A stretch of DNA of 64,000 bases. It comes from Marinifilum fragile JCM 15579 (GTDB lineage: Bacteria; Bacteroidota; Bacteroidia; Bacteroidales; Marinifilaceae). The notes beneath the pieces were generated by a model. It saw only the letters and a program-made list of their open reading frames with translations. It did no database searches and was not told the origin of the DNA. The stretch covers positions 124,001-188,000 of the forward strand of contig NZ_BAZX01000004.1 in the NCBI RefSeq assembly GCF_001310955.1, written 5' to 3'. Positions 9,224 through 40,237 of this stretch are shown here, in pieces (positions within the stretch are counted from its first letter, which is position 1; the number at the start of each line of letters is the position of its first letter). Both the position numbers and the translations under genes were made by a program.

Positions 9224-11256
9224 ATGAAAACCTATTCAACAGCTTGTCCGAGAAATTGCTACAGCACCTGTAGTATTAAAGTTCGTGTAGAGAACGATAA
9301 AGTGATTGGAATTGACCCACATCCTGAAAATCTTGCTACACCAGAAGGACCATGTATTAAAGGTTTGGCTTATGTGGAACGCGCCAATTCGAAGGAGAGA
9401 ATTTTGTATCCGCAAAAGCGAATAGCTGAAGGAAAATACGAACGTATTTCATGGGATGAGGCATTGAATACCATTGTTGAACAGTTGAAAAACTGTAAGC
9501 AGAGCTTTGGATCACATTCAATCCTTTATTTTGCAGCTAGTGGCATGTCTGGTTTGTTGAATGGAGTAGGAGCAAACTTCTGGAAACTGTTTGGAGGCGC
9601 AACAACTACCTATGGAAATCTTTGTTGGCCTGCAGGATTGGAGGCCACTCGACTGACCTTAGGTGCCAACAAACACAATGCACCCTGGGATTTAGAGAAT
9701 GCCAGACTTATTTTATTGTGGGGAAAGAATCCTGCCGAAACCAATATTCAAGAGATGATTCCTGTTGAAAAGGCACAGGAAAAAGGTGCGAAATTGATTG
9801 TGGTTGATCCCCGCAGAACTCCTTCCAGCGAGCGTGCGAATTCACTCTTCCAAATTAAATCGGGAACCGATGCAGCCTTGGCTTTAGGGATTGCAAGAGA
9901 ATTGATTCAGAATGATTGGATCAATCATGAATTTATAGAGAAATACGTACTTGGCTTTGAGCAATTCAAAGAGCGAGCTGATAAATATACATTGGAGAAA
10001 GTGTCAGAAATTTGTCGTATTCCGGTGGAAGCCATTCAGGAATTGGCAAAAGAAATTGGAACAACAGATGCCATGACATTGATTCCTGGTTACGGTATGC
10101 AGCGATATGAAAACGGTGGTCAAACCACTCGCTGTATATTAGCATTGTCGGTGATTACAGGAAATATTGGGAAAACGGGTGCTTGTTTTCATTATGCAAA
10201 TCTTCAGAGCTATGTGTTCGATGATTTGAAAGAACCAGAATCATACTTCCCGGGATGCGAACATCCAAGTTTCAGAAGGAAGATATCAGTAGCCAAATTG
10301 GGTGAGGATTTATTGAATATCAAAGATCCGGAAGTGAAGTTCATTTGGGTTGAAAGGGGAAATCCTTTGTCGCAAAATCCGGATACCAATAAGATTCGAA
10401 AGGCATTTCGAAAGGCAGACTTTAGAGTGGTTGTGGATCAGTTCATGACCGACACTACTTTGGAAGCTGATATTATTCTACCAGCAAAAAATATGTTCGA
10501 ACAATCCGATATCATTGGCTCTTATTGGAATCCTTATGTGCAATTGAGACAGAAAGTAATGGAACCGGTGGGCGAGGTAAAACCTGAAACGGAAATTTAT
10601 TATCTGCTGGCAAAGCAATTGGGATTCACAGATGAAGAAATCAAGGAAAATATACCAGAGCCAAACGATGAGGCAATCGAAGAATATTTGAATGGATTCC
10701 TGAAAGATTTTCCTGAATTAAGTCTGGAACAACTGAAGAAAGGTCCGCAATTGGCAAACTCTTTCGAGGAAATACCATTCTCAGATTACCAGTTTCCAAC
10801 TGTTTCCGGCAAAATTGAGCTGTATAGTGAGTCGCAAAGAAACTTTGGGGAGTGGATGAACTACCCGATTACGTTCCTTTGCCAGAACAAAGTGAATTTG
10901 AGTTTCAGTTGATATCGCCAAACTCAAAGAATCGAATTCATTCACAGTTTGGCAATTTAAATGTGATCAAGCAATTTGAACCCGAAGCCTATCTTTTTGT
11001 TCATCCATTGGATGCTGAAGATAAGGAGATGAAAAATGGTGAAAAAATTGAAATTTATAACCATCAGGGAAGAGCAGAAGTAAAACTGCAGTATGATTTG
11101 GGATTACGCAGAGGAAATGTAGTACTGACCAATGGTCATCAATCTCATTTGGGCGCTGCACCAAACCTGTTTACCAAAGGATGCGAAACTGATATGGGAC
11201 ACGGTACCGCTTTTCACAATACATGGATTAATCTGAAGAAAATTAATAATGAGTAA
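9224..11256 (+). CDS. Molybdopterin oxidoreductase (DMSO reductase family), frameshifted in this sequence
   Basis: The catalytic subunit of a complex iron-sulfur molybdoenzyme, using bis-MGD and one [4Fe-4S] cluster. Cluster ligands are C8, C12, C16 and C44; the Mo-ligand region reads GNLCWPAG, with Cys134 a candidate ligand. No Tat signal is present (the protein begins MKTYSTACPRNC), so it probably stays in the cytoplasm. The first frame ends at 10912 and the second runs from about 10849 to 11256, covering the C-terminal MGD-binding domain (GNLNVIKQF... LTNGHQSHLGAA). Restoring one G in the GGGG run at 10847-10850 rejoins them as about 677 residues. The substrate is unknown; the DmsB/C-like gene downstream is the likely partner. 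Confidence 0.85.
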
Positions 11257-12705: not shown

Positions 12706-12734
12706 GTAAAGACGTAGCATTGCTACGTCTCTAC
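12706..12734. repeat. Dispersed palindrome, family A copy 6 (best copy)
   Basis: AGACGTAGCA-T-TGCTACGTCT, a 10-bp perfect stem with GTAA and CTAC flanks, upstream of the PLP gene start. An upstream TTG (12720) inside the palindrome is not a credible start. Confidence 0.7.
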
Positions 12735-12752
12735 GAAAGCAATATATTGACC

Positions 12753-13926
12753 ATGAAAAAAAACATCAACGCATCACACACACCGCTTTACCGTGAAGCG
12801 GGTTTCAACCTAAAAGATTCGAAAACCACCCAGGAAGCATTCGCTGAAGAATTGGATCATCCGCACGAGCCGGAGAATTATATTTATTCACGCTATAGAA
12901 ACCCAACCACTGTTGCGATTGAGCAGCAAATCATGGAGCTGGAAGGCTGCAAGTGGGCTTTGTTGGTAGAAACTGGAATGGCTGCCATTGATGTGGCAGT
13001 ATCAGTTTTCCAAAAGGGAAAAGATACCCGACCTTGGCTGTTCTTCCATGAAATTTATGGAGGTACCAATTCATTTATCGATACGGTTTTGATCAAGCGT
13101 CGCAATCTGGATGTGCACCGTTTTTATGCCAATGATGGACTGTATGATTTCGAGGAATTGGAGCGCATGTTAAAGGAGATTCAACCAGAATTCCTGTATT
13201 TCGAAGCGGTTTCCAACCCAATGTTGATTGTGGCTGATGTAAAGCGAATCATGGAACTGGCAAAGCAATACGATTGCAAAATTATTGTAGACAATACTTT
13301 CGGAACTCCATATCTGTGGAAACCATTGGTTGACGGTGCCGATTTGGTGATCCATTCTGCAACCAAATACATGAGCGGACATGGTAACATTACTGCCGGT
13401 GTAATTTGTGGTAAAGATGAGGAGCTGATGAAGGAAGCCATTGAGTATCGCAAATGGGCAGGACACTTTCTAAGTCCTGATGATGCCTACCGTTTGGGAA
13501 CTCAGCTAAAGAGTTTCAACTTGCGTTTCAAGCAGCATTGCGATAATGCACTTGCATTGGCAGAATTCCTGCAAAATCATCCTAAAATTGAAGAGGTATT
13601 GTACCCAGTTGGAATCTCACCCAACCCGAAAAGAAGCTGTTGCCCTGTTTGGCGACAAAGGCTTTGGTGGCATGGTCACCTTCGACATCAAAGGAGAATC
13701 GGATGAAGACAAACGCGAGAAATGCAATCGCTTTATAGCCGCTTTAGAAAATCATATTCCTTTGGTGCCAACCCTTGGCGAAGTAGATACCATTCTTTTG
13801 CCGGTAGAACCTGTTTGGGGAGCCAAATATCCACTACCGGGAACCATTCGATTATCGGTAGGGATTGAGAATATTGAGAAGTTGAGGGGGTGGATTGGTG
13901 AAGCCCTTGATGCAATCGGTAATTAA
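12753..13926 (+). CDS. Cys/Met metabolism PLP-dependent enzyme (cystathionine synthase/lyase type), frameshifted in this sequence
   Basis: A trans-sulfuration family enzyme. The PLP lysine lies in HSATKYMSGHG (near residue 205), with YSRYRNPT near residue 45 and the FGTPYLWKPL segment as expected. I start at ATG 12753 (MKKNINASHTPLY). The first frame drifts after VLYP (about 13606) and stops at 13706; the second gives LESHPTRKEAVALFGDKGFG and runs to 13926. Family members read YPGL.SHP here, so two bases appear lost (GG to G and TTT to TT). Cystathionine gamma-synthase, gamma-lyase, methionine gamma-lyase and O-acetylhomoserine sulfhydrylase cannot be told apart. It follows a molybdoenzyme operon, so a sulfur-compound role is possible. 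Confidence 0.82.
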
Positions 13927-13954
13927 CAATGAAGAATTAATAATAAAATAATCT

Positions 13955-13984
13955 GTAGGGACACGTCATGACGTGTCCTTTTTT
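13955..13984 (+). terminator. Perfect palindrome (family A copy 7), likely terminator of the PLP gene
   Basis: GGACACGTCATGACGTGTCC is a perfect 20-bp palindrome with a GTAG flank and a TTTTTT tail. It separates the gene from the repeat arrays that follow. Confidence 0.65.
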
Positions 13985-14034
13985 ATTTGGATTTGAAAAT
14001 GATTAAGATTTTTAGTGACCCTATAACAGCATGT

Positions 14035-14188
14035 CCTATCGCGAATTTTGATATTCCTATCGCCAAAAACGTTCGCCTATCGCTAAAATGAAGGGCCTAT
14101 CGGGTAAATGAACTGTCCTATGGCCATTTTGGCATACCTAACGTTTAAATTACTCACTTATCGCAAAAGAGGTCAACTATTGTAGGGG
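14035..14188. repeat. Phased tandem array 1, core CCTATCGC, seven units of 20-21 nt
   Basis: Core CTATCG (or one-base variants) starts at 14036, 14057, 14077, 14097, 14118, 14138 and 14158, that is spacings 21, 20, 20, 21, 20, 20. The 13 or so bases between cores vary but usually contain an A- or T-tract. The array ends with GTCAACTATTGTAGGGG (14172-14188), which is repeated exactly at the end of array 2. The 20/21 spacing breaks the reading frame, so it is not coding. Function unknown. Confidence 0.85.
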
Positions 14189-14214
14189 CTTAAGAGGGTA
14201 TGTAAGTATTAGAG

Positions 14215-14240
14215 GTAGAGACAGCATTAATGCTGTCTGT
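14215..14240. repeat. Perfect palindrome between the two arrays, family A copy 8
   Basis: AGACAGCATTAATGCTGTCT is a perfect 20-bp palindrome with a GTAG flank on its left. Confidence 0.65.
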
Positions 14241-14328
14241 ATAGATATATAGTAAATCAGTAGGCAAACTTTATCTTCCAGACTAAAAACAAGCCAGCAG
14301 TTATAAGGCCTCCAACAGTTTTGGCACG

Positions 14329-14483
14329 CCTGTAGTCAATTTCTATACCTCTGTAGACAAAAGTCATATTCCTGTAGCCGAAATGTATCGCCTGTAGCCC
14401 CAATAGGTAGTCCTGTAGCGAAAAGGAGGTGCCTTTAGCCAAATTTACCCTCCTGTAGTAAAACGAGTCAACTATTGTAGGGG
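14329..14483. repeat. Phased tandem array 2, core CCTGTAGC, seven units of 20-21 nt
   Basis: Core CTGTAG (one CTTTAG) starts at 14330, 14351, 14372, 14392, 14413, 14433 and 14453, spacings 21, 21, 20, 21, 20, 20. A degenerate first unit may begin at 14309. It ends in the same 17-mer GTCAACTATTGTAGGGG (14467-14483) at the same distance from the last core as in array 1. Variable segments match array 1 unit by unit in several places (AATTT in unit 1, CAAAA in unit 2, AAATG in unit 3). Together with array 1 this fills the 629-bp gap before rmuC. Confidence 0.85.
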
Positions 14484-14503
14484 GGAGTAGAAGATTTACC
14501 CAC

Positions 14504-14528
14504 AAAAAAAGCCACGAAAAATCGTGGC
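14504..14528 (-). terminator. rmuC: Terminator of rmuC
   Basis: On the minus strand GCCACGA-TTTTT-TCGTGGC is followed by TTTTTTT. It isolates the repeat arrays from rmuC transcription. Confidence 0.8.
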
Positions 14529-14555
14529 TCAATATCATTGTTACCTCAATTGAAA

Positions 14556-15929
14556 CTATTCTTTCAGTATCGGAGCATCATCCATTCTATCGATTAAGGC
14601 TTGAGGTAGTTTTTTCTTCACCTTAGCACCCAGCTCTCTAATTTTTTCAGCACTTCGAATTAGGTTACCACGACCTTCGGTTAGTTTGTTCATCGAGGTA
14701 GCGTAAGTTTTTTTAGCCGTATCCATTTGTCTGCCTAAACTGATCATGTCCTCAACAAAACCTACAAATTTGTCGTAAAGAGCTCCACCTTGGCGAGCAA
14801 TTTCCAAAACATTTCGGTTTTGATGCTCCTGTTTCCATATTGAGGCAATGGTGCGCAAGGTTGCCAATAGGGTAGAAGGGCTCACAATTACAATTTTGTT
14901 TTCCCATGCATAGCTAAACAATTCGTGATCTGCCTGTACCGCCATAGCAAAGGATGATTCAATTGGAACAAACATCAATACAAAATCAGGCGAGTTGAGT
15001 TCATCGGAACTTTGGTAATGCTTATTAGACAATTCCTTCACATGAGCTTTCATGGAGGTGACGTGATCTTTTAGGAACTTGTCCTTGTCCTCTTCTCCGT
15101 TGGAATTCACAAATCGTTCATATGCCACTAGCGAAACCTTCGAATCAACAATTACATGCTTCTCTTCAGGCAAACGAATGATTACATCAGGGCGAATGGT
15201 TTGTCCTTCGCTGTTGTGAGTCACCACTTCGCGCTCGTACTCTTCTCCTTTCGAAAGACCCGAACGTTCTAATATTCTTTCTAATACAACTTCGCCCCAG
15301 TTGCCTTGTTTCTTCACATCACCCTTTAAGGCTTTGGTTAGGTTATTAGCTTCATCGCTAATCTTTGCATTCAGATCATAAAGCTTTTTTACCTCTTCTT
15401 TCAGGCTGATTTTATCGCGCAATTCCTTATCGTACGTTTCCTCAACCTTCTTTTCGAACGAAGTCAGCTTTTCCTTGATCGGACCTAGAATATCATCCAT
15501 ATTCTTTTGGTTCGATGTAGTAAACTCTTTGGTGTTTTCCTTCAGGATTTTAGAGGCAATATTCTCGAATTCTGTGGTGAACTTCTTTTGTAATTCTTCC
15601 AGTTCCTGCTTTTGGTTTACCAATCGCTCTTCCAAATTCTTTCTTTCGGTAGCCGAAATAGATACCGAACGGGTTAAGTTTTCGTTTTTATCTCTTTCTT
15701 CGCCCAGCAAATTCGCTATTTCCTCTTTTTCGCGTTTTATGTTATTTGCACGCTCTTCCAATATCGATAATTGGTGCGATAATTCACTTTTTTCATTGAT
15801 AAAAGCATTTTCCTGCTTTAGCAATTCCTCACGATGCAGAGATGCTTGATGCGATATTTTTTTTCTAAGAATTAACCAGGCAATAATTATCCCTTTGGCA
15901 ATTCCAATTGCGATGTATAAAAATTCCAT
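14556..15929 (-). CDS. rmuC: RmuC-family DNA recombination protein
   Basis: RmuC proteins limit inversions at short repeats and carry a nuclease-like fold; the exact reaction is not established. The 457-residue protein has an N-terminal membrane anchor (residues about 3-21), a long coiled coil (about 25-145, rich in E, K and L heptads), and the conserved RmuC domain from about residue 190 (KQGNWGEVVLERILERSGL; RPDVIIRLPEEKHVIVDSKVSL; FVPIESSFAMA). The length fits the family. It is followed by a strong terminator. lpxH lies 51 bp upstream on the same strand, with a family A palindrome in the gap. Confidence 0.92.
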   Translation of the reverse strand: MEFLYIAIGIAKGIIIAWLILRKKISHQASLHREELLKQENAFINEKSELSHQLSILEERANNIKREKEEIANLLGEERDKNENLTRSVSISATERKNLEERLVNQKQELEELQKKFTTEFENIASKILKENTKEFTTSNQKNMDDILGPIKEKLTSFEKKVEETYDKELRDKISLKEEVKKLYDLNAKISDEANNLTKALKGDVKKQGNWGEVVLERILERSGLSKGEEYEREVVTHNSEGQTIRPDVIIRLPEEKHVIVDSKVSLVAYERFVNSNGEEDKDKFLKDHVTSMKAHVKELSNKHYQSSDELNSPDFVLMFVPIESSFAMAVQADHELFSYAWENKIVIVSPSTLLATLRTIASIWKQEHQNRNVLEIARQGGALYDKFVGFVEDMISLGRQMDTAKKTYATSMNKLTEGRGNLIRSAEKIRELGAKVKKKLPQALIDRMDDAPILKE

Positions 15930-15945
15930 TTCAATATTTTTTGAT

Positions 15946-15974
15946 GTCGAGACGTAGCAGTGCTAAGTCTCTAC
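15946..15974. repeat. Dispersed palindrome, family A copy 9
   Basis: AGACGTAGCAGTGCTAAGTCT with GTCG and CTAC flanks, one mismatch pair. It fills the gap between lpxH and rmuC. Confidence 0.6.
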
Positions 15975-15980
15975 GATAAT

Positions 15981-31480: not shown

Positions 31481-31681
31481 TAACATGAATAATATGCCTA
31501 TGAAATAGTCTCATGTATATATCAGCGTGAGAACTATACTTATAATATAGCTTGCTACATTTATCAGCATGAAAACTAAACTTATAATATAGTTTACTAC
31601 ATACAGTTACATGAAAATAATACCTATAATATAGTTTAGTGCATATAGGAGTATGAAAATAACGACTATACTATAGATATC
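31481..31681. promoter_or_regulatory. Five-unit, 42-bp tandem array upstream of the HTH gene (operator-like)
   Basis: Each unit has an ATG/GTG-AAAA-like start (at 31485, 31527, 31569, 31611, 31653, exactly 42 bp apart) followed about 12 bp later by a dyad CTAT-NNN-ATAG (CCTATGAAATAG; TTATAATATAG; TTATAATATAG; CTATAATATAG; CTATACTATAG). 42 bp is four helical turns, so the dyads lie on one face. The array occupies the gap between the HTH start and the MFS terminator. The reading frame is not coding. A degenerate extra unit may lie at 31443. Confidence 0.75.
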
Positions 31682-40155: not shown

Positions 40156-40237
40156 TGCGGATGAAGGGACTCGAACCCCCACGCCTTACGGCACTAGATC
40201 CTAAGTCTAGCGCGGCTACCAATTACGCCACATCCGC
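40156..40237 (-). tRNA. tRNA-Leu, anticodon UAG
   Basis: The minus strand starts GCGGATG and ends CATCCGC plus A. The anticodon stem CTAGA-CTTAGGA-TCTAG gives TAG, a long class II variable arm (TGCCGTAAGGCGT) follows, and GGTTCGAGTCC is the T-arm. Length 82 nt. CCA is not encoded. Confidence 0.95.

Follow-up and report, generated by a model that had tools for sequence, protein, structure and literature searches.

Twin phased word arrays beside rmuC in Marinifilum fragile and a candidate family of array-reading proteins in Bacteroidales

Two phased arrays between rmuC and a Cys/Met PLP enzyme gene

The window, which is the whole 64 kb stretch of DNA analyzed here, belongs to the 4.7 Mb draft genome (94% complete) of Marinifilum fragile, a close relative of Marinifilum sp. 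D737; in the following, this genome is G000, other genomes are labelled G### and loci L###. The locus of interest is flanked by rmuC on the minus strand (14556..15929; PF02646, 9.7e-109), which anchors it in Marinifilum and Labilibaculum, and by the end of a Cys/Met PLP enzyme gene on the plus strand (12753-13926). The latter consists of two overlapping ORFs, while several relatives (cluster c6) have one ORF of ~390-430 aa; either a sequencing error or a pseudogene may account for the split. A gene that looks like an oxidoreductase (9224-11256, plus strand) is likewise divided into overlapping ORFs (9224-10912 and 10852-11256). Terminator-like hairpins toward both neighbours, reported by the first-pass annotation, are present: one lies behind rmuC, directly upstream of array 2 (14509..14530, minus strand), and one follows the Cys/Met PLP enzyme gene (13957..13980, plus strand; 13957-13984 by eye). 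The arrays occupy the space between the rmuC-side hairpin and the end of the enzyme gene. A dispersed palindrome without assigned strand, GACAGCATTAATGCTGTC, lies between them (14215..14241) and has many copies in Marinifilum genomes; further palindromes near genes were seen by eye at 12712-12734 and 15951-15975.

A core search recovered the two arrays of seven cores each with the spacings first described. Array 1 (14035..14194, minus strand) comprises seven CGATAG(G) words, CTATCG on the plus strand, and a header unit at a period of 20/21 bp. Its cores start at 14036, 14057, 14077, 14097, 14118, 14138 and 14158 (spacing 21,20,20,21,20,20); four of seven match CTATCG exactly and three with one mismatch. 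Array 2 (14329..14483, minus strand, 20/21 bp) has seven CTACAG(G) words, CTGTAG on the plus strand, and a header unit, with cores at 14330, 14351, 14372, 14392, 14413, 14433 and 14453 (spacing 21,21,20,21,20,20), six exact and one with a single mismatch. The 64 kb window holds no other chain of at least five 6-mers spaced 20/21 bp with up to one mismatch; in five Markov-shuffled windows, the longest chains counted 4, 0, 0, 0 and 0 units, where 0 denotes none of at least 4. An AT-rich 42-bp tandem repeat at 31517-31676 (3.8 copies; 42 = 2x21) contains no chain of 5 at this spacing. Tandem Repeats Finder detected just a 1.9-copy piece of the arrays at 14075-14112, because the spacers differ.

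The measured period of 20/21 bp is close to two helical turns, as had been proposed, and rules out a coding repeat. A CRISPR array was rejected as well, since the units share only ~6-8 bp, whereas CRISPR repeats are near-identical, about 23-50 bp long and separated by unique spacers. The Rfam scan of the window returned only a tRNA (40156-40237) and no family over the arrays, and the earlier statement that no named element fits them still holds.

Additional features emerge when the arrays are read on the minus strand, with which the units are oriented. Each unit then consists of [word]GG followed by 13-14 bp, and an A/T-rich stretch ~12-18 bp from the word start recurs in the units of three word groups, in line with the A/T-tracts noted before. 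At their plus-strand end, both arrays carry an identical eighth unit, GTCAACTATTGTAGGGG, 19 bp past the seventh core. On the minus strand, this unit forms the header, i.e. the start, of each array, with the common sequence CCCCTACAATAGTTGAC. The header word, which contains TTGAC on the minus strand, lies at 14467..14483 in array 2 and, with the same 17 bases, at 14172..14188 in array 1 (both minus strand). A header model based on the sequences of 15 headers alone scored the array 2 header at 53.0 bits (G000:C4:138432-138483) and that of array 1 at 45.2 bits (G000:C4:138137-138194). It also identified a decayed third array of a header and about two units (14258..14314, minus strand; G000:C4:138258-138314, 26.4 bits) between the two, where L040 and L181 have an ATCAGG array. 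The header carries a promoter-like TTGAC..TAAATTTG, with TTGAC and GGGTAnTTTTG in the headers of the window branch; the Bacteroidetes promoter consensus is TTG .. TAnnTTTG. A putative promoter, TTGACT-18-TAAATT, lies within the first unit of array 2 (14442..14471, minus strand), and the region 13900-14600 contains five promoter-like sites compared to 2.1 (sd 1.4) in shuffles. That the arrays lie outside the transcripts of both neighbours, as the first-pass annotation has it, is a possibility only: a hairpin faces either neighbour, but the header looks like a promoter.

Related arrays and their partner genes

Similar arrays with other words, rather than none, were found in relatives. Among 80 rmuC loci fetched by protein, a detector for 6-mers (one mismatch, at least 5 units) identified alternating 20/21 arrays in seven (L039, L040, L041, L043, L044, L047, L049), all from Marinifilum or Labilibaculum; the remaining detector matches had constant spacing or were N runs. 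Four arrays that differ in their words, plus a remnant, are present at L047. The header model matched 50 times, in 15 of the 56 genomes of the family, and arrays were found at the same genomic places in several species. Neighbouring words are 20 bp (183 cases) or 21 bp (463) apart compared to 22 bp (21) and 19 bp (6), the words having been picked by a score that rewards 20/21. Judged by eye, the arrays at L158 and L165 seem to grow by two-unit tandem duplications of 41 bp.

Many arrays are paired with a gene of one family. At 37 loci with a header above the score limit, a member of one protein cluster (~247 aa, the partner protein) is encoded immediately 5' in 18, with the header abutting or overlapping its stop codon; a truncated copy is present at three (L175, L178, L179) and no partner at 16. 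These three loci, all in G030, retain only the C-terminal part of the partner gene, yet well-formed arrays follow 3'. Conversely, a chain of at least 4 units (6-mers, one mismatch, 20/21 bp) lies within 450 nt downstream of 92 of 125 partner genes, a set that includes orthologues and some truncated genes, and at least 5 units follow 78 of them; 33 of 125 have no chain of 4. The controls for at least 4 units gave 0/115 upstream of the genes and 0/125 in Markov shuffles. The pairing extends to other families of the order, where 15 of 25 loci have at least 4 units and up to 12.

The partner protein was found in 22 of 56 family genomes, with eight copies in G000, in 17 of 393 genomes of an order sample including G000, and in one of 395 genomes of a phylum sample, which is G000 itself. 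There was no trusted match in Pfam (five proteins), NCBIfam (three), PHROGs (two) or the PDB by sequence (one, nothing significant). PADLOC gave no trusted match for two proteins (one weak), and over 47 members two families were each weakly matched in one. The same 47 proteins revealed no consistent Pfam family and no LytTR domain. Phage and plasmid collections yielded no match with one protein tried per collection, and 62 and 39 pattern matches in viral contigs left 0 confirmed. However, NCBIfam PQLLE (NF052641) matched weakly in 26 of 47 members at E<=0.01 (best 5.1e-9); scores for eight partner proteins were 20.8, 29.2, 23.7 and 28.5 bits against a cut-off of 80, with four unmatched. By sequence, the partner proteins are distant relatives of the uncharacterised PQLLE family. 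The five PQLLE-type proteins of G000 that were inspected differ from the partners in having neither a basic tail nor a downstream array; one is a true PQLLE protein (L337, G000:C3:49011-49640, 252 bits) and four are weaker relatives. The partner proteins are presumably alpha-helical.

Around the eight partner genes of G000, the 16 closest neighbours have no family in common, and seven lack a Pfam match. They include LUD, PKD, glycoside hydrolase, Crp-type regulator, phosphoesterase, FKBP isomerase and thioredoxin-like proteins, an ECF sigma factor and a WG-repeat protein; the Pfam scan detected no ParM, ParA or TubZ family among these 16. In the 40 largest neighbour clusters that we looked at, the commonest, a thioredoxin-like family and, by look, a sensor-like family, occur at no more than 7 of 66 partner orthogroups. 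Other recurrent neighbours reflect synteny or are a tyrosine recombinase (PF00589) or an IS200-like transposase (PF01797), in one case of a kind that we assume to be RAYT. A recombinase gene follows the array at a Labilibaculum locus and also lies near L307 and L295; this recombinase might drive the exchange of cassettes.

Association of tail and word, and the form in which words may be read

The C-terminal tail of the partner protein is associated with the word of its array. In 18 window-branch proteins, residues x and x+4 after the motif SEY/SDY are constant within each of seven word classes, and together with x+3 they separate all seven, the classes having been assigned by hand and the three columns picked post hoc. 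I,N corresponds to ATCAGG, A,N to TACAGG, G,H to TAC(G/T/C)GG, L,R to GATAGG, Q,F or Q,Y to AAC(A/T)GG, and Q,Y with F at x+3 to AATAGG. Contacts of Gln with A, Arg with G and Asn with A are known from DNA recognition. The fourth base of the TAC(G/T/C)GG and AAC(A/T)GG classes is mixed within arrays, and L176 was hand-placed in AACAGG though its parse is AACTGG, so the two classes blur.

Using the three columns, the nearest tail predicted the word in 15 of 15 cases compared to 3 of 15 for the nearest protein body, the three AATAGG proteins being left out as they have no independent partner. With the full 9-residue tail, leave-one-out prediction succeeded in 9 of 15, and the six misses were ties that included the right class. 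The tail correlates with the word (partial Mantel r 0.59, p 5e-5), whereas the body does not (r 0.06, p 0.28; 18 proteins). For 14 independent representatives, the within-class distance gave p 5e-5 for the tail, the smallest value possible with 20,000 label permutations, and p 0.55 for the body. Over 65 deduplicated family members, in contrast, the body has the larger partial r (0.23, compared to 0.12 for the tail, p 0.0003). Across families, L241 (Marinifilaceae) and L324 from another family have tails LRKHQ.. and share the word ACCTAAT or its like; L312, with tail LRKHR.. and word TATGCAA, is a counter-example. The tails of L313 and L315 agree, both loci being in one genus. At loci with a LUD neighbour (L149, L150, L152, L155, L158, L176, L182, L184), tail-word pairs differ by species, as if tail and array were swapped as a cassette. 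A tail-word link that arises from shared DNA was rejected, the tail codons lacking the word (22 loci). In a tailless subfamily (L239, L242, L248, L250, L253, L255, L260, L261, L270), the C-terminus ends before the tail and 21-bp arrays persist in several members, which argues that the tail is not the sole reader.

The geometry of the arrays bears on whether words are read as DNA or RNA. Inverted halves occur in 38 of 90 arrays, many of them belonging to distant members of the family, and in the 37 with clear order the centre gap is 3-14 modulo 21. Its clustering modulo the period (R 0.83) in the 24 arrays with at least 3 units each way persists when only the 11 arrays independent at a level of 60% identity are kept (R 0.80; Rayleigh p 8e-4), and some small centre gaps (7-10 bp) may be mere close packing. 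This near-constant helical register favours double-stranded DNA over an RNA hairpin. Additionally, among the 57 arrays whose start lies more than 60 nt past the stop, 33 have a terminator-like hairpin between them and the gene, compared to 3.4 in shuffles.

These observations have to be weighed against the strongest rival, in which the array acts as RNA, as a 3' UTR or a small RNA, with words bound by the partner or pairing with targets. Several points speak for it: the putative promoter in the window-branch header (TTGAC, GGGTAnTTTTG), the expected position of linked window-branch arrays in the partner 3' UTR, and hairpins with T runs after several arrays (by eye, uncounted). Moreover, all units point the same way in 28 of the 33 arrays that start within 60 nt of the stop, and a terminator precedes none of these 33, there being little room for one. 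However, arrays placed behind the terminator of the gene and inverted halves in register would be needless for an RNA, and the spacing is held to 20/21, though words were scored to favour it. Three array RNAs folded no better than shuffles (z +1.7, -1.1 and +0.4), and a structured RNA was therefore discarded. We consider an RNA role unlikely overall, though it deserves more credit than the two explanations below.

Words are kept over spacers in most linked pairs: they mismatch less in 20 of 24, with one tie and three not lower, and in 13 of 15 orphan comparisons; linked pairs share members, and both sets are biased toward words because units were chosen on that basis. For the window arrays as a whole compared to G038, mismatches amount to 14/112 in words, 34/209 in spacers and 40/180 outside, suggesting weak constraint at most. 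In array 2 compared to G038 in one direction, words are not better kept than spacers (5/49 versus 5/81).

A second rival holds that the arrays are operators in bulk, i.e. LytTR-like direct repeats that regulate the header promoter or neighbouring genes. LytTR sites have a similar period and the header is promoter-like, but cognate words hardly occur in the 400 nt upstream of the partner gene (0.016 per locus compared to 0.041 in the control, exact words, 64 loci), which speaks against an operator at that place. Many sites run away from the header, and neither the 47 partner proteins, with no LytTR match, nor the unrelated neighbours of the G000 genes fit this explanation, which we regard as improbable. 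Least credible of all, and very unlikely in our judgement, are repeats of a selfish or inert kind, a minisatellite or a MITE resembling BrickBuilt of P. gingivalis and spread by nearby IS200-like or tyrosine recombinase genes: such genes near some loci, the 41-bp duplications at L158 and L165 and the arrays beside truncated genes in G030 would fit, but words kept while spacers drift, the tail-word association and the recurrence at the same genomic places in several species argue against them.

Orphan arrays, proposed landing pads and known systems

The two arrays of the window appear to be orphans. No partner gene was found in the window or in the 80 rmuC loci, and the tails of the eight partner proteins in the 94%-complete draft of G000 include neither the CTACAG nor the CGATAG type. 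CTACAG-type proteins are encoded in G036 (L150, tail YARQKN) and G027, and CGATAG-type proteins in G038 (L184) and G028. Across G000, the window array is the sole place with exact CTACAGG pairs at array spacing. Consequently, the window arrays may be bound by a copy that escaped detection, through cross-recognition or, at present, not at all. Among the 22 orphan arrays of 4 or more units in the draft genomes on which these counts rest, 17 have a word that no linked window-branch array of their own genome uses (15 if AACAGG and AACTGG are merged), which suggests that orphans do not simply serve resident partners. A decay of orphans in the absence of a partner was considered and is weak: exact words number 72/136 and 24/40 in orphans compared to 73/182 in linked arrays, a comparison given little weight because the parse runs past array ends.

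Taken together, our preferred explanation, which we think probable, is that the arrays are multivalent DNA landing pads read by the tail of a cognate protein, the window harbouring two orphans. An array would usually offer 5-12 copies of one short word, and as these are two helical turns apart, protein copies would be lined up along the same face of the DNA. As a rule, the partner would be the ~247-aa protein whose gene lies 5' of the array. Its basic C-terminal tail, presumably helical, would read the word, with which the residues x and x+4 are associated in the window branch. We infer that the tail contacts double-stranded DNA directly. As to the cellular role, a segrosome-like or clustering nucleoprotein complex is our guess. 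The interpretation of the first-pass annotation is hence supported in part: its description of the arrays stands, and the minus-strand orientation, the protein-array family and the window pair as copies without a protein gene go beyond it.

A more far-reaching possibility, less likely than not, is chromosomal DNA addressing, with up to eight or nine pairs per genome, swappable tails, exchange of tail and array as a cassette within a locus, and orphans as an archive or decoy. It is conceivable, if rather doubtful, that orphan loci keep the words of relatives' proteins, in place of those of resident proteins, against foreign variants and that the residue code is simple.

If the landing-pad explanation is true, Bacteroidales would gain an as yet undescribed protein-DNA system, in which a few hundred bp of adjacent DNA reveal the target of a protein. 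Dozens of protein-site pairs would form a natural data set for a recognition code in a short C-terminal tail, and the function of PQLLE-family relatives would become testable. The orphan arrays pose the question of why words are kept that no resident protein seems to read. Our literature search found no description of such a protein-array system, which is apparently undescribed.

Several known systems nevertheless resemble it in part. BrickBuilt of P. gingivalis consists of intergenic direct repeats of 23 nt with promoter activity, inside a MITE with terminal inverted repeats (PMC4596501). Like the arrays, these are short, intergenic direct repeats in Bacteroidales; the portion of that report used here names no partner protein, and the BrickBuilt unit is alike over its whole length, whereas the array units differ in the spacer. 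LytTR-system sites are direct repeats mostly 12 bp apart, with a minority at 11 or 13 (PMC6193735), and form a repeat pair upstream of -35, in contrast to the many sites and many words 3' of a gene described here.

The nearest understood system is ParR/parC. In C. perfringens, each ParR binds only the parC of its own family (PMC9426499). The arrays differ from parC in being chromosomal, several per genome and 3' of the gene, and in that inverted half-arrays are common. No motor gene was detected among the scanned neighbours, and the putative reader of ~247 aa is not known as a ribbon-helix-helix protein. The type II ParMRC system of pSK41 has 20-bp repeats. What the two have in common are direct repeats beside the gene of a DNA-binding protein, a putative one in the present case, with a period of 20 bp in pSK41, and this ParMRC-like architecture of gene beside array characterizes the linked loci, the window arrays standing without a partner gene beside them.
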